A stretch of DNA of 64,000 nucleotides from an uncultured Flavobacteriaceae bacterium (GCA_905181835.1 CAJIZF010000004.1:620001-684000), one strand, 5' to 3'; counted from the first letter of the stretch, positions 54,349-64,000 are shown. Numbers and translations are program-made. Notes: a model not told the origin generated them from the sequence alone.

Positions 54349-55370
54349 ATGAAAAAAATTACATTAATCATGTTTGCGTTCCTTGCTTCAGTATCTCTAT
54401 GTGCAGGTAAATGCTCAGACATACACTGGAGATACACGGTGCTATTCCAGACAATATTGTCCTGTTTAACTCCGTTACATCGATGCTGCAGCTGCAACAT
54501 TTTGGCTCTAGTAGGTTCAGCAGTAGGTGAATACACCTTCGACAATGTGACTTTAAACATTTCACACGTACTTGGGACGGAGATTTAGAAATTAATCTGG
54601 TTTCACCAAGCGGTGTATCTTTAGACTTAATCATCAGTCAACGGAGGTCTTGGTGACAATTACACTGATACCGTTTTCCAAGATGGAGCACCTAGTATTA
54701 CTACTGGTTCTGCTCCATTTAATGGTACTTTCTCTGCGGAAGGTGGATCAATGGCAGCTACGTTTGCTGGAGAAGCATGCTTAACGGAATGGATTGGTCA
54801 TTAAATGGATTTTATTGGAGATACTGGGAGTGTAAACTCTTGGTCAATAACTTTCTCAGAAATTTTACCACCACCACCATATCTTTTCAGTCAAGATTGT
54901 TCAGAAGAGATGCCTTTAGAATTTCACCCACCATTATTGCTTCTGCTGGAGTAGTGGTTGCAGATTCAGGATATCCTAGTGATACTGGTGTTGTTGGTAT
55001 CTGGACTTGGAGAATACGTTCTTGAGAGCATTGTTGTAAATGCTCAAGGAGATAATGGCTGAGGATGTAGCATTTTATTACAACCAGCATCGGTACAACA
55101 TATTATGGGAACTTGGTGGTGTTGCCGGAGGAACCGATGGTATGGACACTGCTGTAGATTTAACATTTACAGATTCTTCTTCGAATAACTATATTGATTG
55201 GACTGGTGGCGCACCTGCTGCTGATTACTTCCAGAAGATGGAGCATTTAATGCAGCACTTGCTGGATTAGATATCAACGGCGAGTGGTTTTTGAGTTTTA
55301 GAAGGTGCTGGTAGTCAGATGTTACTACAGTAAACAGTTTTTGTATTAACTGGGCAATGAGCTCAGGAGA
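54349..55370 (+). pseudogene. 5' part of modular secreted protein (signal peptide + two P-domain-like modules), disrupted by many small indels
   Basis: Signal peptide MKKITLIMFAFLASVSLCAG, then P-domain reading recoverable only by switching frames (GEYTFDNVTLNISH..., NYTDTVFQDGAPSITTGSAPFNGTF..., EEMPLEF...); alignment by eye to 59280-59750 shows at least seven 1-2 nt indels. Confidence 0.75.
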
Positions 55371-58356
55371 CGCACCAGAGATTTTCTGTTTAGCAGATTT
55401 TGCTGCAGATAACGATGAAGGAGCTTGTGGCGCAGTAGTTAATTTTGCACCACCAATTGCATTGGATACAGAAGATGGTACTTTAGCTGCAGCTAATATA
55501 GTACAAACTGCAGGTCCTGCTACAGGAAGTGAATTTCCAGTAGGCGATACGGATGTAACATTTACAGCTACTGATTCTCATGGAAATGAGACTTCATGTA
55601 CTTTTGTAGTTACTATCAACGATGCTGAGGCACCCGTTGCTGTATGTCAAGCAGTAACAGTTACTTTAGATGCTATGGGAATGGGATCAATAGTTGCTTC
55701 TGATTTAGATGGCGGTTCTACTGATAACTGTGGAGTTGATTCATTCGCAGCATCACAGACAACATTTGGTTGTTCAGATGTAGGAGATGTAACCGTAGTT
55801 TTAGAGGTATACGATGTAGCTGGAAACATGACTTCATGTGAAGCTACAGTAACCGTAGTTGACGAAACAGCACCAGTAATAGAATGTATTGGATCACCAT
55901 CTGGTCCATCTGTCTTTATAAATGAAGCACCTATTGAAGTTGCTGTTGTTGAAAGTGTTTTAACACTTTCTGATGACGTTGAATTACAAGATTTAAATGT
56001 AAACTTAGATATTACTCACGCTTGGATCGGTGATATGATTATCACATTAACATCACCAGCTGGAACAACAGTAACTTTACTTGATACAATGGGTGGAGGA
56101 GCTTTTGGATGTAATGGTGACGGTGTATTGGTTACTTTAGACGATGATGCTGCTGAGGGTATCAATGATCAATGTGATGTATTAGTTACAGGAGTATATA
56201 GCCCACTTGAAGCATTAGCTGCTTTCAATGGTGAAATGTCAATGGGAGACTGGACATTATCAGTTACAGACACTTTCACTGCAGGTGACGATGGTGTTTT
56301 AAATTCTTGGGGAGTTGATTTCCAATACGAGCCAGTTGTTACACCACCATTATTACTAGATTTAAATGCTGACGGAACAGTAACAGTCCCAGCTTCTGAT
56401 TTACTTTTAGATGTTATTGAGGCATGTGATTATTCCGTAGTATCAGGTTCAACAGGACCTTGTTCACAAAGTAATCCTGGAAATAACTTAGAAGGAGCTA
56501 CATTTAACAATGGAGCACCATTCTGGGTAGCTAATCAAGTTACATCTACTGGAGATTTTACACTTACACAAATCACAATGAACTTGTGGCATAATGTTGG
56601 AGCTTCTGTTGCTGATATGACATTTACATACTACGCAGATGCTGCAGGACAACCTGGAGCAGCTATAGGAACAGAAACAGTATCACCAACATCTCAAACT
56701 GTAGTAGGTGGGCCATTTGATGGTGCATTTGATGCTAGTGAGGTAGTTTATGATATTACACCAGTTGAATTTGCAGCAGGTACATATTGGATTGGAACAG
56801 TTGGAGCTGCTTCAGATGCCGGTGTATTAGGTTGGGAAAACACAACAGCATCAAGTAACGGAAACGGTTGGGCAACATCAGGTGATGGTGGAGCTACGTG
56901 GAGTGTAGATGCTGGTGGAGACGGTGTATATACTTTCTCTGGAGTTTGTGGTGTCGCTGACCCATTAAACTTCACTTTCGATTGTTCTAACTTAGGAGAG
57001 AACGTTATCGATGTTGTTGTAACTGATGCATCTGGAAACTCTACTAGTTGTCAAGCAACGGTAATTGTATCTGATGTAACTGCACCAGTATTAGTATGTG
57101 GACCTAGCGAAGATGTTACTACGGTAACTGTTGATTTTGAAGGATCTTCTGTACCAGAAGGTTGGTCAGTATCAAACACAGCTGGAGATTTTGATTGGAC
57201 ATTTGGAGCCTCAGGTGCTATAAATGCCGGAGGAACTATTCCATTTGCAAGTAACGCAGCAATTTTCGATGACGATGCAGCAGGAAATGGAAATGTAAAC
57301 AATGCATCACTATTAACCCCAGTATGGGATATGAGTGGTACCTCATCAGTAACGATGTCTTACGACTATAGCTTTAACGAGTTAGGAGCTGGAGAGACTT
57401 TAGCGGTAGATGTATATGATGGCGCTGCATGGCAAAATGTAGTTCTGTATGATGTGTCTGTATTAACTCCAGAGAATTCAGGAGTAATTGACGGATCTGC
57501 ATTAGCAAACGCTGACTTCCAAGTACGTTTTACATATGACGATGCTGGATCATGGGGATGGAATGCTGGAGTAGATAACTTCCAGATTGATTTCGCTCTT
57601 CCACCAGCAAATCCAGATGTAGTAACTGTTACATTAGGAGAAGACGGTATGGCAGAATTAGATGCTATGGATTTCTTATCTGAAGCATATGATGCTTGTG
57701 GTATCGATGTATTGATTGCAGATTTAGAGATGGTAAGTTGTGATGATATCGGAACTCCAATCGAGGTAACGGTATTCGCTACGGATGCTAGTGGAAACAT
57801 TGCAAGTTGTTCAGTCGAGGTTGTAGTTGTAGATACTATGGCACCAGTACTTACTTGTCCAGAAGATGTTTCGGTAATGGTAGATCCTGATGGGACTCAT
57901 ACTGTAGCTGATTACATAGGATCAGGTGAGGCGACTGCTACAGATAACTGTACAGATCCAGTAAGTGACTTTACACAGGATCCTGCAGCAGGAACTGTTT
58001 TAGGAGTAGGCGAATGGGTAGTTACATTTACAGCTACTGATGAGTACGGAAACGTATCTACTTGTGAGATGAACTTAGATTTAACACTCTTAGGGAATGA
58101 AGACAACGAGTTAAGTAGTGCAATTGCATTATATCCTAACCCAGCTGGAGAGCAAGTGACTATATCAAACAGCTCTAACATTACATTAGAGACTGCTATG
58201 ATTTACGATCTTAACGGAAAGTTAGTATCACAGATCAACTTGCAGGATATGCAAAGTGAACAAGTGATCGATGTATCTTCATATGCAACTGGAGTGTACA
58301 TGGTACAGATCACAGGAGATCAATCAAGCGTTGTAAAACGAATGATCAAAGAGTAG
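55357..58356 (+). CDS. HYR/P-domain modular T9SS type A secreted protein (copy 1, intact 3' part)
   Basis: HYR-like VTFTATDSHGNETSCTFVVTINDAEAPVA; P-domain-like DITHAWIGDMIITLTSPAGT; sorting domain ALYPNPAGEQVTISNSSNITLETAMIYDLNGKLV...GVYMVQITGDQSSVVKRMIKE. Confidence 0.85.
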   Translation: MSSGDAPEIFCLADFAADNDEGACGAVVNFAPPIALDTEDGTLAAANIVQTAGPATGSEFPVGDTDVTFTATDSHGNETSCTFVVTINDAEAPVAVCQAVTVTLDAMGMGSIVASDLDGGSTDNCGVDSFAASQTTFGCSDVGDVTVVLEVYDVAGNMTSCEATVTVVDETAPVIECIGSPSGPSVFINEAPIEVAVVESVLTLSDDVELQDLNVNLDITHAWIGDMIITLTSPAGTTVTLLDTMGGGAFGCNGDGVLVTLDDDAAEGINDQCDVLVTGVYSPLEALAAFNGEMSMGDWTLSVTDTFTAGDDGVLNSWGVDFQYEPVVTPPLLLDLNADGTVTVPASDLLLDVIEACDYSVVSGSTGPCSQSNPGNNLEGATFNNGAPFWVANQVTSTGDFTLTQITMNLWHNVGASVADMTFTYYADAAGQPGAAIGTETVSPTSQTVVGGPFDGAFDASEVVYDITPVEFAAGTYWIGTVGAASDAGVLGWENTTASSNGNGWATSGDGGATWSVDAGGDGVYTFSGVCGVADPLNFTFDCSNLGENVIDVVVTDASGNSTSCQATVIVSDVTAPVLVCGPSEDVTTVTVDFEGSSVPEGWSVSNTAGDFDWTFGASGAINAGGTIPFASNAAIFDDDAAGNGNVNNASLLTPVWDMSGTSSVTMSYDYSFNELGAGETLAVDVYDGAAWQNVVLYDVSVLTPENSGVIDGSALANADFQVRFTYDDAGSWGWNAGVDNFQIDFALPPANPDVVTVTLGEDGMAELDAMDFLSEAYDACGIDVLIADLEMVSCDDIGTPIEVTVFATDASGNIASCSVEVVVVDTMAPVLTCPEDVSVMVDPDGTHTVADYIGSGEATATDNCTDPVSDFTQDPAAGTVLGVGEWVVTFTATDEYGNVSTCEMNLDLTLLGNEDNELSSAIALYPNPAGEQVTISNSSNITLETAMIYDLNGKLVSQINLQDMQSEQVIDVSSYATGVYMVQITGDQSSVVKRMIKE
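56980..58356 (+). repeat. 1377-bp near-identical direct repeat, copy 1
   Basis: Co-linear with 61465-62841 with no net length change and only scattered substitutions. Confidence 0.9.
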
Positions 58357-58390
58357 TAGGTGTTTAAATAACCAACTTAAATAAATACAA

Positions 58391-58421
58391 AATCCCTTCC
58401 TTAATTGGAGGGGATTTTTTT
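58391..58421 (+). terminator. intrinsic terminator, array copy 1
   Basis: AATCCCTTCCTTAATTGGAGGGGATTTTTTT. Confidence 0.8.
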
Positions 58422-58507
58422 ATGCAATAAAGATTTTTATATTTCTATAACCTCTATAATACATGTGTCATATATGTATCATTTTTTTTAATTAATATAT
58501 AATATCT

Positions 58508-58515
58508 TATATTTG
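58508..58515 (+). promoter_or_regulatory. -7 element TATATTTG upstream of the 58549 gene
   Basis: TATATTTG 33 nt upstream of ATG. Confidence 0.5.
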
Positions 58516-58548
58516 TCGGTATTTAATAATTTACTAAATTAAACAAAC

Positions 58549-61500
58549 ATGAAAAAAATTACTTTATTAACCTTTTTGTTTGCAGTATTGACTATTCCTT
58601 TAGTATATGGACAATCTCTTTCAAATGGTGTAACAAATGCTAACGATCAATCTCGTTCGGCTTTAACGACATTAAGTAGCCCTGTTTCAGACGTAGCACG
58701 TTCTACAGAAGCTACCAATTTATTTAACAATCAGGCCGTTGTTACTTTACAACAAAGTACAACATTGAATTTTACAAGTGGTCTTTCTTGTCAAGATGGA
58801 CCTACGGCTTATGATACAGATCTTTTTAGAGCTTATGATTTAGCAGGTACTTATGGTATCACTAATGATTTTGAAGTTATAGGTGTAGAATTTGCTACCT
58901 ACTATTTTAATGGTGCTGGACCAAATCCAATCACTGTTAATGTGTATTCAACTCCAACAGGAACTTTTCCAGGAGGGGATTTAACACTTCAAGGTACTGC
59001 AGTCCAAACGGTCTCAGCTGCAAATAATTTTGATTTACTAACGGTACCTCTTTCAGCAACTATACCAGCTGGAGAGACACTTGTATACGAAGTGAGTTTA
59101 GTTCGTGATGGCGTAAACCGTCCAGCTTTTCTTGGGAATACAGAGGGTCAATCAGCCCCTACTTATTGGAGATCTGCACCTTGTGGTTCACCAGATATTG
59201 TAGATTTTGGAGGAACATACGCTGCAGTAATGAATGTTATTGGTCAAGAATTAGAACCAGTTTCAGGCTTTTCCTTTTGTTCAGAAGAAATGCCTTTAGA
59301 ATTTAATCCACCAATAGTGGCTTCTGCTGGTGTTATGATTACTGATACTTCTGATGAGAACTCAGGCGATTTAGGTATCATTGGTACAGATTTAGGAGAA
59401 TACGTTCTTGAGAGCGTTGTTATAAATGTAGAAGGCGAAATGGCTGAGGATGTAGCATTCTATTTACAACCAGCTGGAACAGGCATACAATGGGAACTTG
59501 GTGCTTTTGCCGGAGGAACCGATGGTATGGATACTGCTGTAGATTTAGTATTTACAGATGTATCTTTAAATAACTATGATGATTGGACGGGTGGTGCACC
59601 CGCTGCTGATTACCTTCCATCAGATGGAGCATTTAATACAGCACTTGCTGGATTAGACATTAACGGCGAATGGTTTTTAGTTGTAGAAGGAGCTGGTTCA
59701 GATGTTACTACGGTAAACAGTTTTTGTATCAATATGGCCTTGATTTCAGGAGAAGCACCAGAAATTTTCTGTCCAGCAGATTTTGTTGCAGATAATGATG
59801 AAGGAGCATGTGGCGCAGTAGTTAATTTTGCACCACCAATTGCGATCGATTTAGAAGACGGTAGTTTAGATGCTGAATTCATAGTTCAAACAGGAGGAAT
59901 TGAAACTGGAGGATTCTTTCCAGTAGGAGATAATAATGTAACCTTTACAGCTACTGATTCTCATGGAAATGAGACTTCCTGTACGTTTGTAATTACAGTT
60001 AACGATGTAGAGGCTCCTGTTGCTGTATGTCAAGCTGTGACCGTAACCCTAGATATTACTGGTGCAGCATCAATAGTTGCTTCTGATTTAGATGGCGGAT
60101 CTACTGACAACTGTGGAGTTGATTCATTCGTAGCATCACAGACAGCATTTAGTTGTGCTGATGTAGGTGACGTAACAGTCACTCTAGAAGTATATGATGT
60201 AGCTGGAAACATGACTTCATGTGAAGCTACAGTAACCGTAGTTGATGATACGGCACCAGTAATTGAATGTATTGGCGAACCTGTAGCAATTGTAATAACT
60301 CATAATCCAGAGGACCTTATTGAGGCTGGATATGGCGTTGCATGTCCAACAGGAGATAACCTTTTTGCAAGACAATTTGTAATGAGTGACTTTGGAATTA
60401 CAGAAGAATTTACAATTTCTTCAGGTAAATTTGGAGTTCAGTCTGCTGAAGTTGATATGGATATTACTTATAACATATGGGATGTAAGCGCTGGTTTTCC
60501 AGCAGGACATCCGGGATCTTCTACTTTATTAGGATCTGAAGTTGTTACAGTATCAGCTGGTGAGTTTTTTGTACAAAATGTTACTTTCGACACACCAGTA
60601 GTTGTACCAACTACAACAACAACCATATTAGTTGAAGTATCAAAAGATGCTCCTGAGGCATTTTTCCTAGGAGGAACTGCAACGAAAGTTGATTTTTCTT
60701 ATCTTGCTTCAGTTACGTGTGGAGTACCAGAATATACTACAGCAACAGACATAGGTTTCCCTGATGCTAATTATTATATGACCGTAAGAGGAACCAATGC
60801 TTCTTCCGAAATTGAGCCATTTGAGGTTGACTTAAATGCAGACGGTACCGTTACTATCTTAATGGAAGATTTAATTCAAGGTATTGATGAAGCTTGTAGT
60901 TACACAGTAACTTCAGGAGGAGACGGCGCTGGCGCATGTGATTTTGACAATCCAAATGATTTTACTTTTGAGAATGGATATAACTGTTCATCAGCAACAG
61001 ATTTCCGAACAGCAAACGATCTTGATGTTGTAGGAGGAGATTTTACATTAAATCAAATTACAGCAAGTATTTTTGCTAATGGCGGAATTGCTTCAGTAGA
61101 TGTTATATATCATGACAATGATGGAGGATTACCAGGAGCTGAAATAGGATCTGAATTAGGATTAACTCCTTCTTCACAAGCTGTAATTGGAAATAACTTT
61201 GGTATTGATGTTAACGAAATCGTATTGGATTTAACACCAGTAGTATTTACAGAAGGTAAATACTGGGTTGAGTTATCAGTAACCGATACTGGAGGTACAG
61301 GAACTGTATTCTGGGTAATAACGACTTCATCTTCAATGGGAGATCCAGTAGCAAACTTCAATGGCGGATGGGCTTACCCTGATTCGACCATGGATGGTGT
61401 TGCAACTTTCTCAGGAGAATGTTCAGGTGGCGGCTCAGGCGGCGGCGGAACAGAAATCGTATTAGATTGTTCTAACTTAGGAGAGAACGTTATCGATGTT

Positions 61501-62841
61501 GTAGTAACTGATGCATCTGGAAACTCTACTAGTTGTCAAGCAACGGTAGTTGTATCTGATGTAACTGCACCAGTATTAGTATGTGGACCTAGCGAAGATG
61601 TTACTACGGTAACTGTTGATTTTGAAGGATCTTCTGTACCAGAAGGTTGGTCAGTATCAAACACAGCTGGAGATTACGATTGGACATTTGGAGCCTCAGG
61701 TGCTATAAATGCCGGAGGAACTGTTCCATTTGCAAGTAACGCAGCAATTTTCGATGACGATGATGCTGGAAATGGAAATGTAAACAATGCATCACTATTA
61801 ACCCCAGTATGGGATATGAGTGGTACCTCATCAGTAACGATGTCTTACGACTATAGCTTTAACGAGTTAGGAGCTGGAGAGACCTTAGCGGTAGATGTAT
61901 ATGATGGAGCTGCATGGCAAAATGTAGTTCTGTATGATGTGTCTGTATTAACTCCAGAGAATTCAGGAGTAATTGACGGATCTGCATTAGCAAACGCTGA
62001 CTTCCAAGTACGTTTTACATATGACGATGCTGGATCATGGGGATGGAATGCTGGAGTAGATAACTTCCAGATTGATTTCGCTCTTCCACCAGCAAATCCA
62101 GATGTAGTAACTGTTACATTAGGAGAAGACGGTATGGCAGAATTAGATGCTATGGATTTCTTATCTGAAGCATATGATGCTTGTGGTATCGATGTATTGA
62201 TTGCAGATTTAGAGATGGTAAGTTGTGATGATATCGGAACTCCAATCGAGGTAACGGTATTCGCTACGGATGCTAGTGGAAACATTGCAAGTTGTTCAGT
62301 CGAGGTTGTAGTTGTAGATACTATGGCACCAGTACTTACTTGTCCAGAAGATGTTTCGGTAATGGTAGATCCTGATGGGACTCATACTGTAGCTGATTAC
62401 ATAGGATCAGGTGAGGCTACTGCTACAGATAACTGTACAGATCCAGTAAGTGACTTTACACAGGATCCTGCAGCAGGAACTGTTTTAGGAGTAGGCGAAT
62501 GGGTAGTTACATTTACAGCTACTGATGAGTACGGAAACGTATCTACTTGTGAGATGAACTTAGATTTAACACTCTTAGGGAATGAAGACAACGAGTTAAG
62601 CAATGCAATTGCATTATATCCTAACCCAGCTGGAGAGCAGGTGACTATATCAAACAGTTCTAATATTGCATTAGAGACTGCTATGATCTACGATCTTAAC
62701 GGGAAGTTAGTATCACAGATCAACTTGCAGGATATGCAAAGTGAGCGAGTGATCGATGTATCTTCTTATGCAACTGGAGTGTACATGGTACAGATTACAG
62801 GAGAGCAATCAAGCGTTGTAAAACGAATGATCAAAGAGTAG
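58549..62841 (+). CDS. 1430-aa modular T9SS type A secreted protein (P-domain + HYR modules, copy 2)
   Basis: Signal peptide MKKITLLTFLFAVLTIPLVYG; EMAEDVAFYLQPAGTGIQWELGAFAGGTDGMDTAVDLVFTD P-domain; VTFTATDSHGNETSCTFVITVND HYR; C-terminal sorting domain. Confidence 0.88.
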   Translation: MKKITLLTFLFAVLTIPLVYGQSLSNGVTNANDQSRSALTTLSSPVSDVARSTEATNLFNNQAVVTLQQSTTLNFTSGLSCQDGPTAYDTDLFRAYDLAGTYGITNDFEVIGVEFATYYFNGAGPNPITVNVYSTPTGTFPGGDLTLQGTAVQTVSAANNFDLLTVPLSATIPAGETLVYEVSLVRDGVNRPAFLGNTEGQSAPTYWRSAPCGSPDIVDFGGTYAAVMNVIGQELEPVSGFSFCSEEMPLEFNPPIVASAGVMITDTSDENSGDLGIIGTDLGEYVLESVVINVEGEMAEDVAFYLQPAGTGIQWELGAFAGGTDGMDTAVDLVFTDVSLNNYDDWTGGAPAADYLPSDGAFNTALAGLDINGEWFLVVEGAGSDVTTVNSFCINMALISGEAPEIFCPADFVADNDEGACGAVVNFAPPIAIDLEDGSLDAEFIVQTGGIETGGFFPVGDNNVTFTATDSHGNETSCTFVITVNDVEAPVAVCQAVTVTLDITGAASIVASDLDGGSTDNCGVDSFVASQTAFSCADVGDVTVTLEVYDVAGNMTSCEATVTVVDDTAPVIECIGEPVAIVITHNPEDLIEAGYGVACPTGDNLFARQFVMSDFGITEEFTISSGKFGVQSAEVDMDITYNIWDVSAGFPAGHPGSSTLLGSEVVTVSAGEFFVQNVTFDTPVVVPTTTTTILVEVSKDAPEAFFLGGTATKVDFSYLASVTCGVPEYTTATDIGFPDANYYMTVRGTNASSEIEPFEVDLNADGTVTILMEDLIQGIDEACSYTVTSGGDGAGACDFDNPNDFTFENGYNCSSATDFRTANDLDVVGGDFTLNQITASIFANGGIASVDVIYHDNDGGLPGAEIGSELGLTPSSQAVIGNNFGIDVNEIVLDLTPVVFTEGKYWVELSVTDTGGTGTVFWVITTSSSMGDPVANFNGGWAYPDSTMDGVATFSGECSGGGSGGGGTEIVLDCSNLGENVIDVVVTDASGNSTSCQATVVVSDVTAPVLVCGPSEDVTTVTVDFEGSSVPEGWSVSNTAGDYDWTFGASGAINAGGTVPFASNAAIFDDDDAGNGNVNNASLLTPVWDMSGTSSVTMSYDYSFNELGAGETLAVDVYDGAAWQNVVLYDVSVLTPENSGVIDGSALANADFQVRFTYDDAGSWGWNAGVDNFQIDFALPPANPDVVTVTLGEDGMAELDAMDFLSEAYDACGIDVLIADLEMVSCDDIGTPIEVTVFATDASGNIASCSVEVVVVDTMAPVLTCPEDVSVMVDPDGTHTVADYIGSGEATATDNCTDPVSDFTQDPAAGTVLGVGEWVVTFTATDEYGNVSTCEMNLDLTLLGNEDNELSNAIALYPNPAGEQVTISNSSNIALETAMIYDLNGKLVSQINLQDMQSERVIDVSSYATGVYMVQITGEQSSVVKRMIKE
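61465..62841 (+). repeat. 1377-bp near-identical direct repeat, copy 2
   Basis: Co-linear with 56980-58356. Confidence 0.9.
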
Positions 62842-62871
62842 GTTTTAAACAACCCACTTAAATAAATACAA

Positions 62872-62902
62872 AATCCCTTCCTTAATTGGAAGGGATTTTT
62901 TT
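62872..62902 (+). terminator. intrinsic terminator, array copy 2
   Basis: AATCCCTTCCTTAATTGGAAGGGATTTTTTT. Confidence 0.8.
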
Positions 62903-63209
62903 ATGCAATAACGTTTTTTATATTTTGCATTGGTTATTAGGTGCAGGTGATGTCGAAGATTTTGCTTCTTTAGTATTGTATCCAAACCCTGCCGATAGCA
63001 AAGTAAACTTAAGTAACCCAAGACAGATAGACCTGAATAATGTGACAATTTACGATCTTACGGGTCGAATCGTTCATAAGATCGATTTAAGTGCTATGGG
63101 ATCGGAAATTACGATTGATATTTCTACCCTTGCCAATGCTACCTATATGTTAGTGATTAGACGAGATCAAGGAATTTCGACCAAACAATTAATTGTCAAT
63201 AACTACTAA
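62886..63209 (+). pseudogene. orphan T9SS type A C-terminal sorting domain (remnant of a third array member)
   Basis: LVLYPNPADSKVNLSNPRQIDLNNVTIYDLTGRIVHKIDLS...ISTLANATYMLVIRRDQGISTKQLIVNNY with no signal peptide or upstream domains. Confidence 0.7.
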
Positions 63210-63233
63210 TTGGATTAATTTCTAAATAAATAA

Positions 63234-63265
63234 AAATCCCTTCCTTAATTGGAGGGGATTTTTTT
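63234..63265 (+). terminator. intrinsic terminator, array copy 3
   Basis: AATCCCTTCCTTAATTGGAGGGGATTTTTTTA. Confidence 0.8.
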
Positions 63266-63330
63266 ATCAGTAAAGACTTTAGTTGATTCCACAGAAGTTG
63301 ACTTGATTCTAAGAGATATACTTGTAAAAA

Positions 63331-63356
63331 AAAGAGCCTGTTTAACAGGCTCTTTG
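63331..63356. terminator. bidirectional-type terminator between convergent genes
   Basis: AAAGAGCCTGTTTAACAGGCTCTTT perfect inverted repeat. Confidence 0.75.
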
Positions 63357-63377
63357 TATAAATAAGAAAATGTACGT

Positions 63378-63977
63378 TTACCTTTTAAGGCTAAAGTGTC
63401 CACTAAATTCTTTTTTGATATTATTTTCTGTGTATTCGACTCTAAACCAGTAATCGTTTGAGGGGAGTGGGTTTCCGTTATAGGTTCCGTCCCATCCTGG
63501 AGACATAGGGCTTATTTGCTTTAGGAGTTTTCCAAAGCGATCAAATATATAGATTTTAGCAGTAGGATCTCCAATAGATATTCCCAGTATATTCCAGGTA
63601 TCGTGGTATCCATCTTGGTTTGGTGTAATAAACCTTGGAAAATCGATTACAGCGACCTCTGTTGTTACACTACCACATCCATAAATATCTTTAATGGTAA
63701 TGGTGTGAGTTCCTGGAACTACATTTAAGAAGTAGCCACTATCTTGAAAAGGGTTATCATCTAATTGGAATATATATTCTCCTATTCCCTCTGCGGTAGC
63801 AGTGATATTATGTTGTGATGCAAAAGCTTCTGTTACCTGCACATCGTAGTTTAGTGGTGGTGATGAGATTACCACTTGTGTATCGGTAGCTGCCATACAT
63901 CCTGTTAGTATCTCGGTTACCGTTACACTGTAGTTTCCTTCTTGTAGGGCAGTAATGGAAGCTCCAATTTCTCCCAA
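63378..63977 (-). CDS. C-terminal part of a T9SS type B (gliding-motility-associated C-terminal domain) secreted protein, runs off the window edge
   Basis: FPRFITPNQDGYHDTWNILGI...KIYIFDRFGKLLKQISPMSPGWDGTYNGNPLPSNDYWFRVEY...FSGHFSLKR. Confidence 0.88.
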   Translation of the reverse strand: MGEIGASITALQEGNYSVTVTEILTGCMAATDTQVVISSPPLNYDVQVTEAFASQHNITATAEGIGEYIFQLDDNPFQDSGYFLNVVPGTHTITIKDIYGCGSVTTEVAVIDFPRFITPNQDGYHDTWNILGISIGDPTAKIYIFDRFGKLLKQISPMSPGWDGTYNGNPLPSNDYWFRVEYTENNIKKEFSGHFSLKR

Positions 63978-64000
63978 TAATACATCTCCATTTAATTGCC

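Follow-up and report, generated by a model that had tools for sequence, protein, structure and literature searches.

Near-identical secretion tails and differing modules in a recombining family of surface-protein genes from a marine Flavobacteriaceae genome

The genome of a marine Flavobacteriaceae bacterium (G000; a 2.30-Mb assembly of 8 contigs) contains a family of at least four genes (A, B, C and D) that encode large modular surface proteins. The window, i.e. the whole stretch of 64,000 nucleotides that was analyzed (C4:620001-684000), holds genes A and B together with a sorting-domain remnant, and genes C and D carry the same tail 51 kb downstream on contig C4, outside the window. An earlier note on this DNA had counted two large genes and a third member surviving as a sorting domain alone; this describes the window correctly (the remnant matches Por_Secre_tail) but misses the two further members. 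The window's first 54 kb are collinear with contig C14 (119345 bp) of G018, a sister species and the closest searchable relative. In every member the modules follow one order, N-terminal module, 5' block, central module, E module and tail, with the N-terminal and central positions forming two variable slots per gene (Table 1). The 5' block is composed of P-domain-like, HYR and Ig-like regions, and the tail of Ig-like, MAM-like, HYR and sorting domains; "MAM-like" and the "P-domain-like" of the 5' block are our own reading of the sequence, the latter supported by Pfam only in the relative UBA3591. The Pfam domains of the family are HYR, P_proprotein, Por_Secre_tail, LTD and CUB/GEVED-like, and so include all three that the earlier note had proposed for a profile search of the cassettes.

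Table 1. Features of the array within the window (positions counted from its first nucleotide)
Feature	Position	Strand	Description
Gene A	54349-58356	+	signal-peptide-like start to Por_Secre_tail
Gene A, N-terminal part	54349-55314	+	signal-peptide-like start, P-domain-like module, start of 5' block; 14 frame breaks
Gene A, shared 5' block	54897-55892	+	P-domain-like region, HYR, Ig-like; 90-92% identical to D and C
Gene A, central slot	55893-56390	+	P-domain PF01483, E 1.5e-14 (residues 225-335 of window:55315-58353)
Gene A, E module	56391-56976	+	family common to B, C and D; diverged, dS about 1.3
Gene A, shared 3' block	56977-58356	+	Ig-like, MAM-like module, Ig/HYR, Por_Secre_tail; 97.7-98% identical to tails of B, C and D
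Intergenic unit with terminator hairpin	58363-58444	+	repeat family D4, recurs after each gene
Gene B	58549-62841	+	intact single frame, 1430 aa
Gene B, N-terminal variable module	58615-59276	+	no Pfam family
Gene B, shared 5' block	59277-60275	+	83.2% identical to gene A block
Gene B, central slot	60276-60819	+	no Pfam family
Gene B, E module	60820-61461	+	about 99% identical to C and D
Gene B, shared 3' block	61462-62841	+	with Por_Secre_tail
Remnant, sorting domain alone	62886-63206	+	Por_Secre_tail, E 5e-15
Terminator/intergenic stretch	63223-63370	+	89.5% identical to the stretch that separates gene D from rho, 51 kb downstream

Genes A and B lie in the same orientation and, as had been noted before, share a 5' block, a near-identical 3' block (~98%) and a terminator, the D4 unit that follows each gene (three copies, at 58363, 62844 and 63207). 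The repeats are far beyond chance. Gene B is intact and starts with MKKITLLTFLFAVLTIPLVYGQ, which is signal-like by eye only. Gene A, which had been taken for a second large gene, has its sole long open frame beginning at 55315/55357 rather than at 54349; read with tolerance for frame changes, the gene requires 14 shifts ahead of 55315 and none in the next 3 kb, bar an end effect that is also present in intact gene B. On this reading of the broken stretch, the N-terminal module of gene A matches P_proprotein (E 8.7e-5). Matches to Por_Secre_tail (PF18962) are above the cut-off in genes A (E 3.4e-16), B (E 5.5e-16) and D (E 1.8e-16). The centers of A and B had been described as markedly different, with an extra P-domain-like module in one and an unrelated beta-rich module in the other. 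A P-domain is indeed found in A and none in B, but "unrelated" holds for the first ~500 bp only, as both centers end in an E module of the same family, with about 40% amino acid identity (E 1.5e-30). Likeness between the modules in the two slots of one gene is significant in A (both P-domains, E 2.8e-8), weak in B (27% over 142 aa, E 6e-4) and not significant in C (0.07). Single-sequence AlphaFold models of two stretches of gene B reached a pLDDT of 32-33, and a PDB sequence search returned weak matches only.

Genes C and D span C4:~725.6-734.6 kb, between yaaA and rho, with their tails at C4:728528-729906 and 733246-734622, and all four tails share a 1377-bp block at ~98% or better. The center of gene C resembles a lamin-tail domain (LTD; E 3.2e-7, 31.1 bits, under the 34.3 cut-off), and that of gene D aligns to it. 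The N-terminal module of gene D matches the head of G18_2, a gene of the sister species that has DUF6923/kelch-type matches.

Further repeated surface genes occur in the same genome. A giant minus-strand CHU_C-type gene is present twice (63379-70301 and 80108-87023 in window numbering) at 97.4% identity. One of the copies is open over 3442 aa and the other is broken, accompanied by an ~870-bp tandem repeat at 73497-77282; the region runs from window 63379-64000 on to C4 ~710.4 kb (L009, L010). A second, dispersed set of genes with T9SS tails comprises L006 (C1:~74.8 kb), L008 (C4:~271 kb) and L007 (C4:~546 kb), of which L006 and L008, both with broken frames, are 96.5% identical over 1.5 kb and L007 is about 82-84% identical. 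The ~270-bp sorting tail of the array also occurs on a different gene of 559 aa (L005, C1:271941-272207; 81% DNA identity), and similar tails are found on ORFs of similar length in G018, G010 and G016.

The broken frames of the array bear on how far its sequence can be trusted. Genes C and D show 18 and 21 frame shifts in their 5' parts, counts that include the end effect seen in A and B, and the broken regions, namely ~970 bp at the start of A and much of the 5' portions of C and D, carry dense indels of 1-2 nt. Compared with its cleaner sister gene G18_2, gene D shows ~5 substitutions per 100 bp, which is near background, and 3-6 short indels per 100 bp, of which secDF has almost none. Since the substitutions are ordinary while the indels are many, and other repeated surface genes (at 70-80 kb, L006 and L008) are similarly broken, the frame breaks in A, C and D look like consensus error at repeats and not gene decay. 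A decaying pseudogene is not favored for gene A, given that the comparably broken part of D combines ~5% species-level substitution with its 3-6 short indels per 100 bp, and population heterogeneity was rejected as the source of the indel noise because this noise is not special to the locus. The consensus is nevertheless unreliable in the 5' end of A and in C and D, so that consensus building may account for part of the similarity of the tails.

The content of the slot after secDF varies among relatives. It holds A and B in this genome. In G018 it is occupied by a lipoprotein-like gene along with two members that have different heads and whose central modules are MAM-like and share 96% identity, and in G001 by the same lipoprotein-like gene and one member, followed by rho; no gene lies between secDF and rho in G006. 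The earlier note had named an identical locus in all related genomes as counter-evidence, and this is not what is found, as the cassettes differ at the secDF slot. A gene of ~1130 aa (L037:1897-5286, L036:8882-12256) stands between secDF and the array in G018, with a lipoprotein-like start, and in G001, with FG-GAP/UnbV_ASPIC, and is absent there in G000, and G014 has a gene of similar size, inverted, at its position. In UBA3591, which belongs to another genus, two genes are 78% identical in the 5' part and 83.5% in the 3' part around an unalignable center of ~500 bp. In the present genome the distance from secDF to rho is 61 kb; a 42-kb block is flanked by A-B and C-D, all in the same orientation, and a second copy of the 150 bp preceding rho lies at 63223-63370. 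The yaaA gene adjoins an HYR gene in G005, G011, G012 and UBA3591, and the members beside it in G005 and G011 have an LTD-type center as in gene C. The order seen here is what a crossover joining a secDF-rho member to a yaaA member would produce, and what a mis-join at the repeats would produce as well. Within the part of C4 at 63-94 kb relative to secDF, the block at positions 90.5-94.4 kb has its counterpart in inverted order directly after secDF in five genomes (G004, G005, G008, G011 and G012), which gives the secDF-rho interval the appearance of a hot spot for rearrangements within the genus.

Synonymous divergence separates the histories of the segments. For the pair A-B, dS amounts to 0.46 (5' block), 1.27 (E module) and 0.05 (tail), with the step at 56977; the pair B-D gives 0.00 (E module) and 0.01 (tail). 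The background between this genome and the sister species has a median dS of 0.21 (range 0.04-0.73, 43 flanking genes); as the tails fall below it, they were homogenized after the species split, while the centers of A and B are much older. In an alignment of six tails, 33 two-state sites split those of A, B, C and D from those of G18_1 and G18_2, 0 sites pair an individual A-D tail with an individual tail of the sister species, and the tail of A has 15 private sites. The N-terminal region of gene D is ~95% identical in substitutions to that of G18_2, and yet their centers differ, LTD-like in D and MAM-like in G18_2. On these comparisons, cassette turnover over evolutionary time with gene conversion of the tails is a well supported reading, and the dS step, the genome-specific tails and the differing cassettes in relatives uphold, on that time scale, the earlier proposal of swapping and duplication by recombination. 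We make no claim of horizontal tail exchange between the two species, for which tail dS (0.11-0.14) lies inside the 43-gene range.

Under the reading that we consider probable, the genes are a small set of paralogues for adhesin-like multidomain surface proteins that leave the cell through the T9SS, each headed by a putative signal peptide; the set has been shaped by tandem duplication and by homogenization of the tails through homologous recombination. Copies would arise by tandem duplication, recombination through the shared ends (gene conversion or crossover) would keep the tails near-identical within a genome, and different binding-type modules would come to occupy the two open slots of each gene. 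We infer that exchange proceeds by ordinary homologous recombination rather than by a dedicated system. No inverted repeats that flank or join the cassettes were found nearby, and the four tyrosine recombinase matches in the genome all lie on contigs other than that of the array, so that a dedicated switch is not indicated; the pairing of cassette inverted repeats with a nearby recombinase that marks an invertible phase-variable locus is lacking for the tyrosine recombinases searched.

Several other accounts of the array can be weighed against this reading. Recent tandem duplication with purifying selection on the tail and no gene conversion would fit a region that holds the secretion signal and is conserved in protein, but selection on protein does not lower dS, which falls to 0.01-0.05 in the tail against at least 0.46 in the adjoining segments of the same gene pair, and the tails are genome-specific; we regard this as the least credible account. 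It is also very improbable that B alone is expressed and that A, C and D serve as 5'-broken silent donors of the pilE/pilS type. Only B is intact, and the breaks do cluster in the 5' parts of the other three while the tails are mostly clean; however, the frequent short indels of D against G18_2, at a substitution identity near 95%, have the look of read error, unrelated repeated genes are broken likewise, and a signal-peptide-like sequence still opens both A and D.

An assembly artefact, in which collapsed or mis-joined repeats account for the extra copies, the alike tails or the order A-B, 42 kb, C-D, is unlikely, though less so than these two. It draws on the dense 1-2 nt indels and the other broken surface genes, on the placement of secDF and rho, which are adjacent in G006 and flank one member in G001 and here lie far apart, and on a study of the 2020 North Sea bloom, with presumably related PacBio MAGs (HiFi reads, Flye assembly), that reported more frameshifts in the PacBio data (PMC10877868). 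Against it, the copies carry distinct modules, the tail of A has its private sites, an independent sister assembly has the same architecture, and G005 and G011 also have yaaA beside an LTD-type member. Somewhat more doubtful is a contingency locus, in which cassettes are exchanged, deleted and duplicated in the living population to yield antigenic or ligand variation. Different cassettes are enclosed by direct repeats 1.4-2.1 kb long that are 98-99% identical, and at one slot the sister species carry cassettes unlike each other's; however, the array has neither cassette-linking inverted repeats nor a nearby recombinase (tyrosine type searched), and the observed differences lie between species and are explicable by ordinary evolution. 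We likewise doubt that, in this free-living bacterium, binding modules are continually moved between intact B and its partner copies by way of the shared 5' blocks and tails; if they were, the cells of one bloom would display different surface proteins.

Export of the family through the T9SS is predicted from its C-terminal Por_Secre_tail (PF18962 in A, B, D and the remnant) and from the presence of the machinery component searched for, SprA (SprA_N match on C1, E 8e-134). The variable modules may be displayed at the surface and bind ligands, although the P-domain, LTD and CUB-like types only suggest binding. The domain set and the precedent of the gingipain/HagA family suggest adhesion or substrate capture via interchangeable modules.

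The family of modular surface proteins is genuine and of an already known type, and its genes recombine. Judged by synonymous divergence, it offers a clean natural case of a secretion tail homogenized within a genome while the displayed modules turn over between close species, a pattern to be expected if recombination builds the surface-binding repertoires of Bacteroidota that live with particles or algae. The array is, in addition, a warning that the consensus of long-read MAGs can be unreliable exactly in such arrays.

A search of the literature on T9SS/HYR/P-domain/LTD arrays found nothing direct. The closest known analogue is the gingipain/HagA family of Porphyromonas gingivalis (RgpA, Kgp and HagA; PMC5266723), which has in common with the present genes a T9SS C-terminal domain, near-identical modules between paralogues and a combinatorial use of adhesin modules. 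In that family the modules differ between strains, the regions defeat assembly, and domain rearrangement and gene conversion have been proposed (PMC5266723). The genes described here differ in having, in the Pfam results for all members, no gingipain catalytic domain, cleaved-adhesin domain (CAD) or DUF2436, in using P-domain, LTD, HYR and non-Pfam modules, and in being mostly tandem; the variation shown for them is confined to that between species. In Bacteroidetes, fibrillar adhesin-like proteins likewise combine stalk-type Ig-like domains, other modules and a C-terminal sorting domain, and their adhesive domains often lie mid-protein (PMC8286594); HYR is absent from the text of that survey, and the modules here are known from sequence alone. 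The modular T9SS/HYR proteins of other Flavobacteriaceae (UBA3591, G005, G011 and G012) belong to the same family, share its blocks and Por_Secre_tail and often stand beside yaaA; the dispersed copies of UBA3591 have tails that are 83.5% alike, in contrast to 98-99% in G000.
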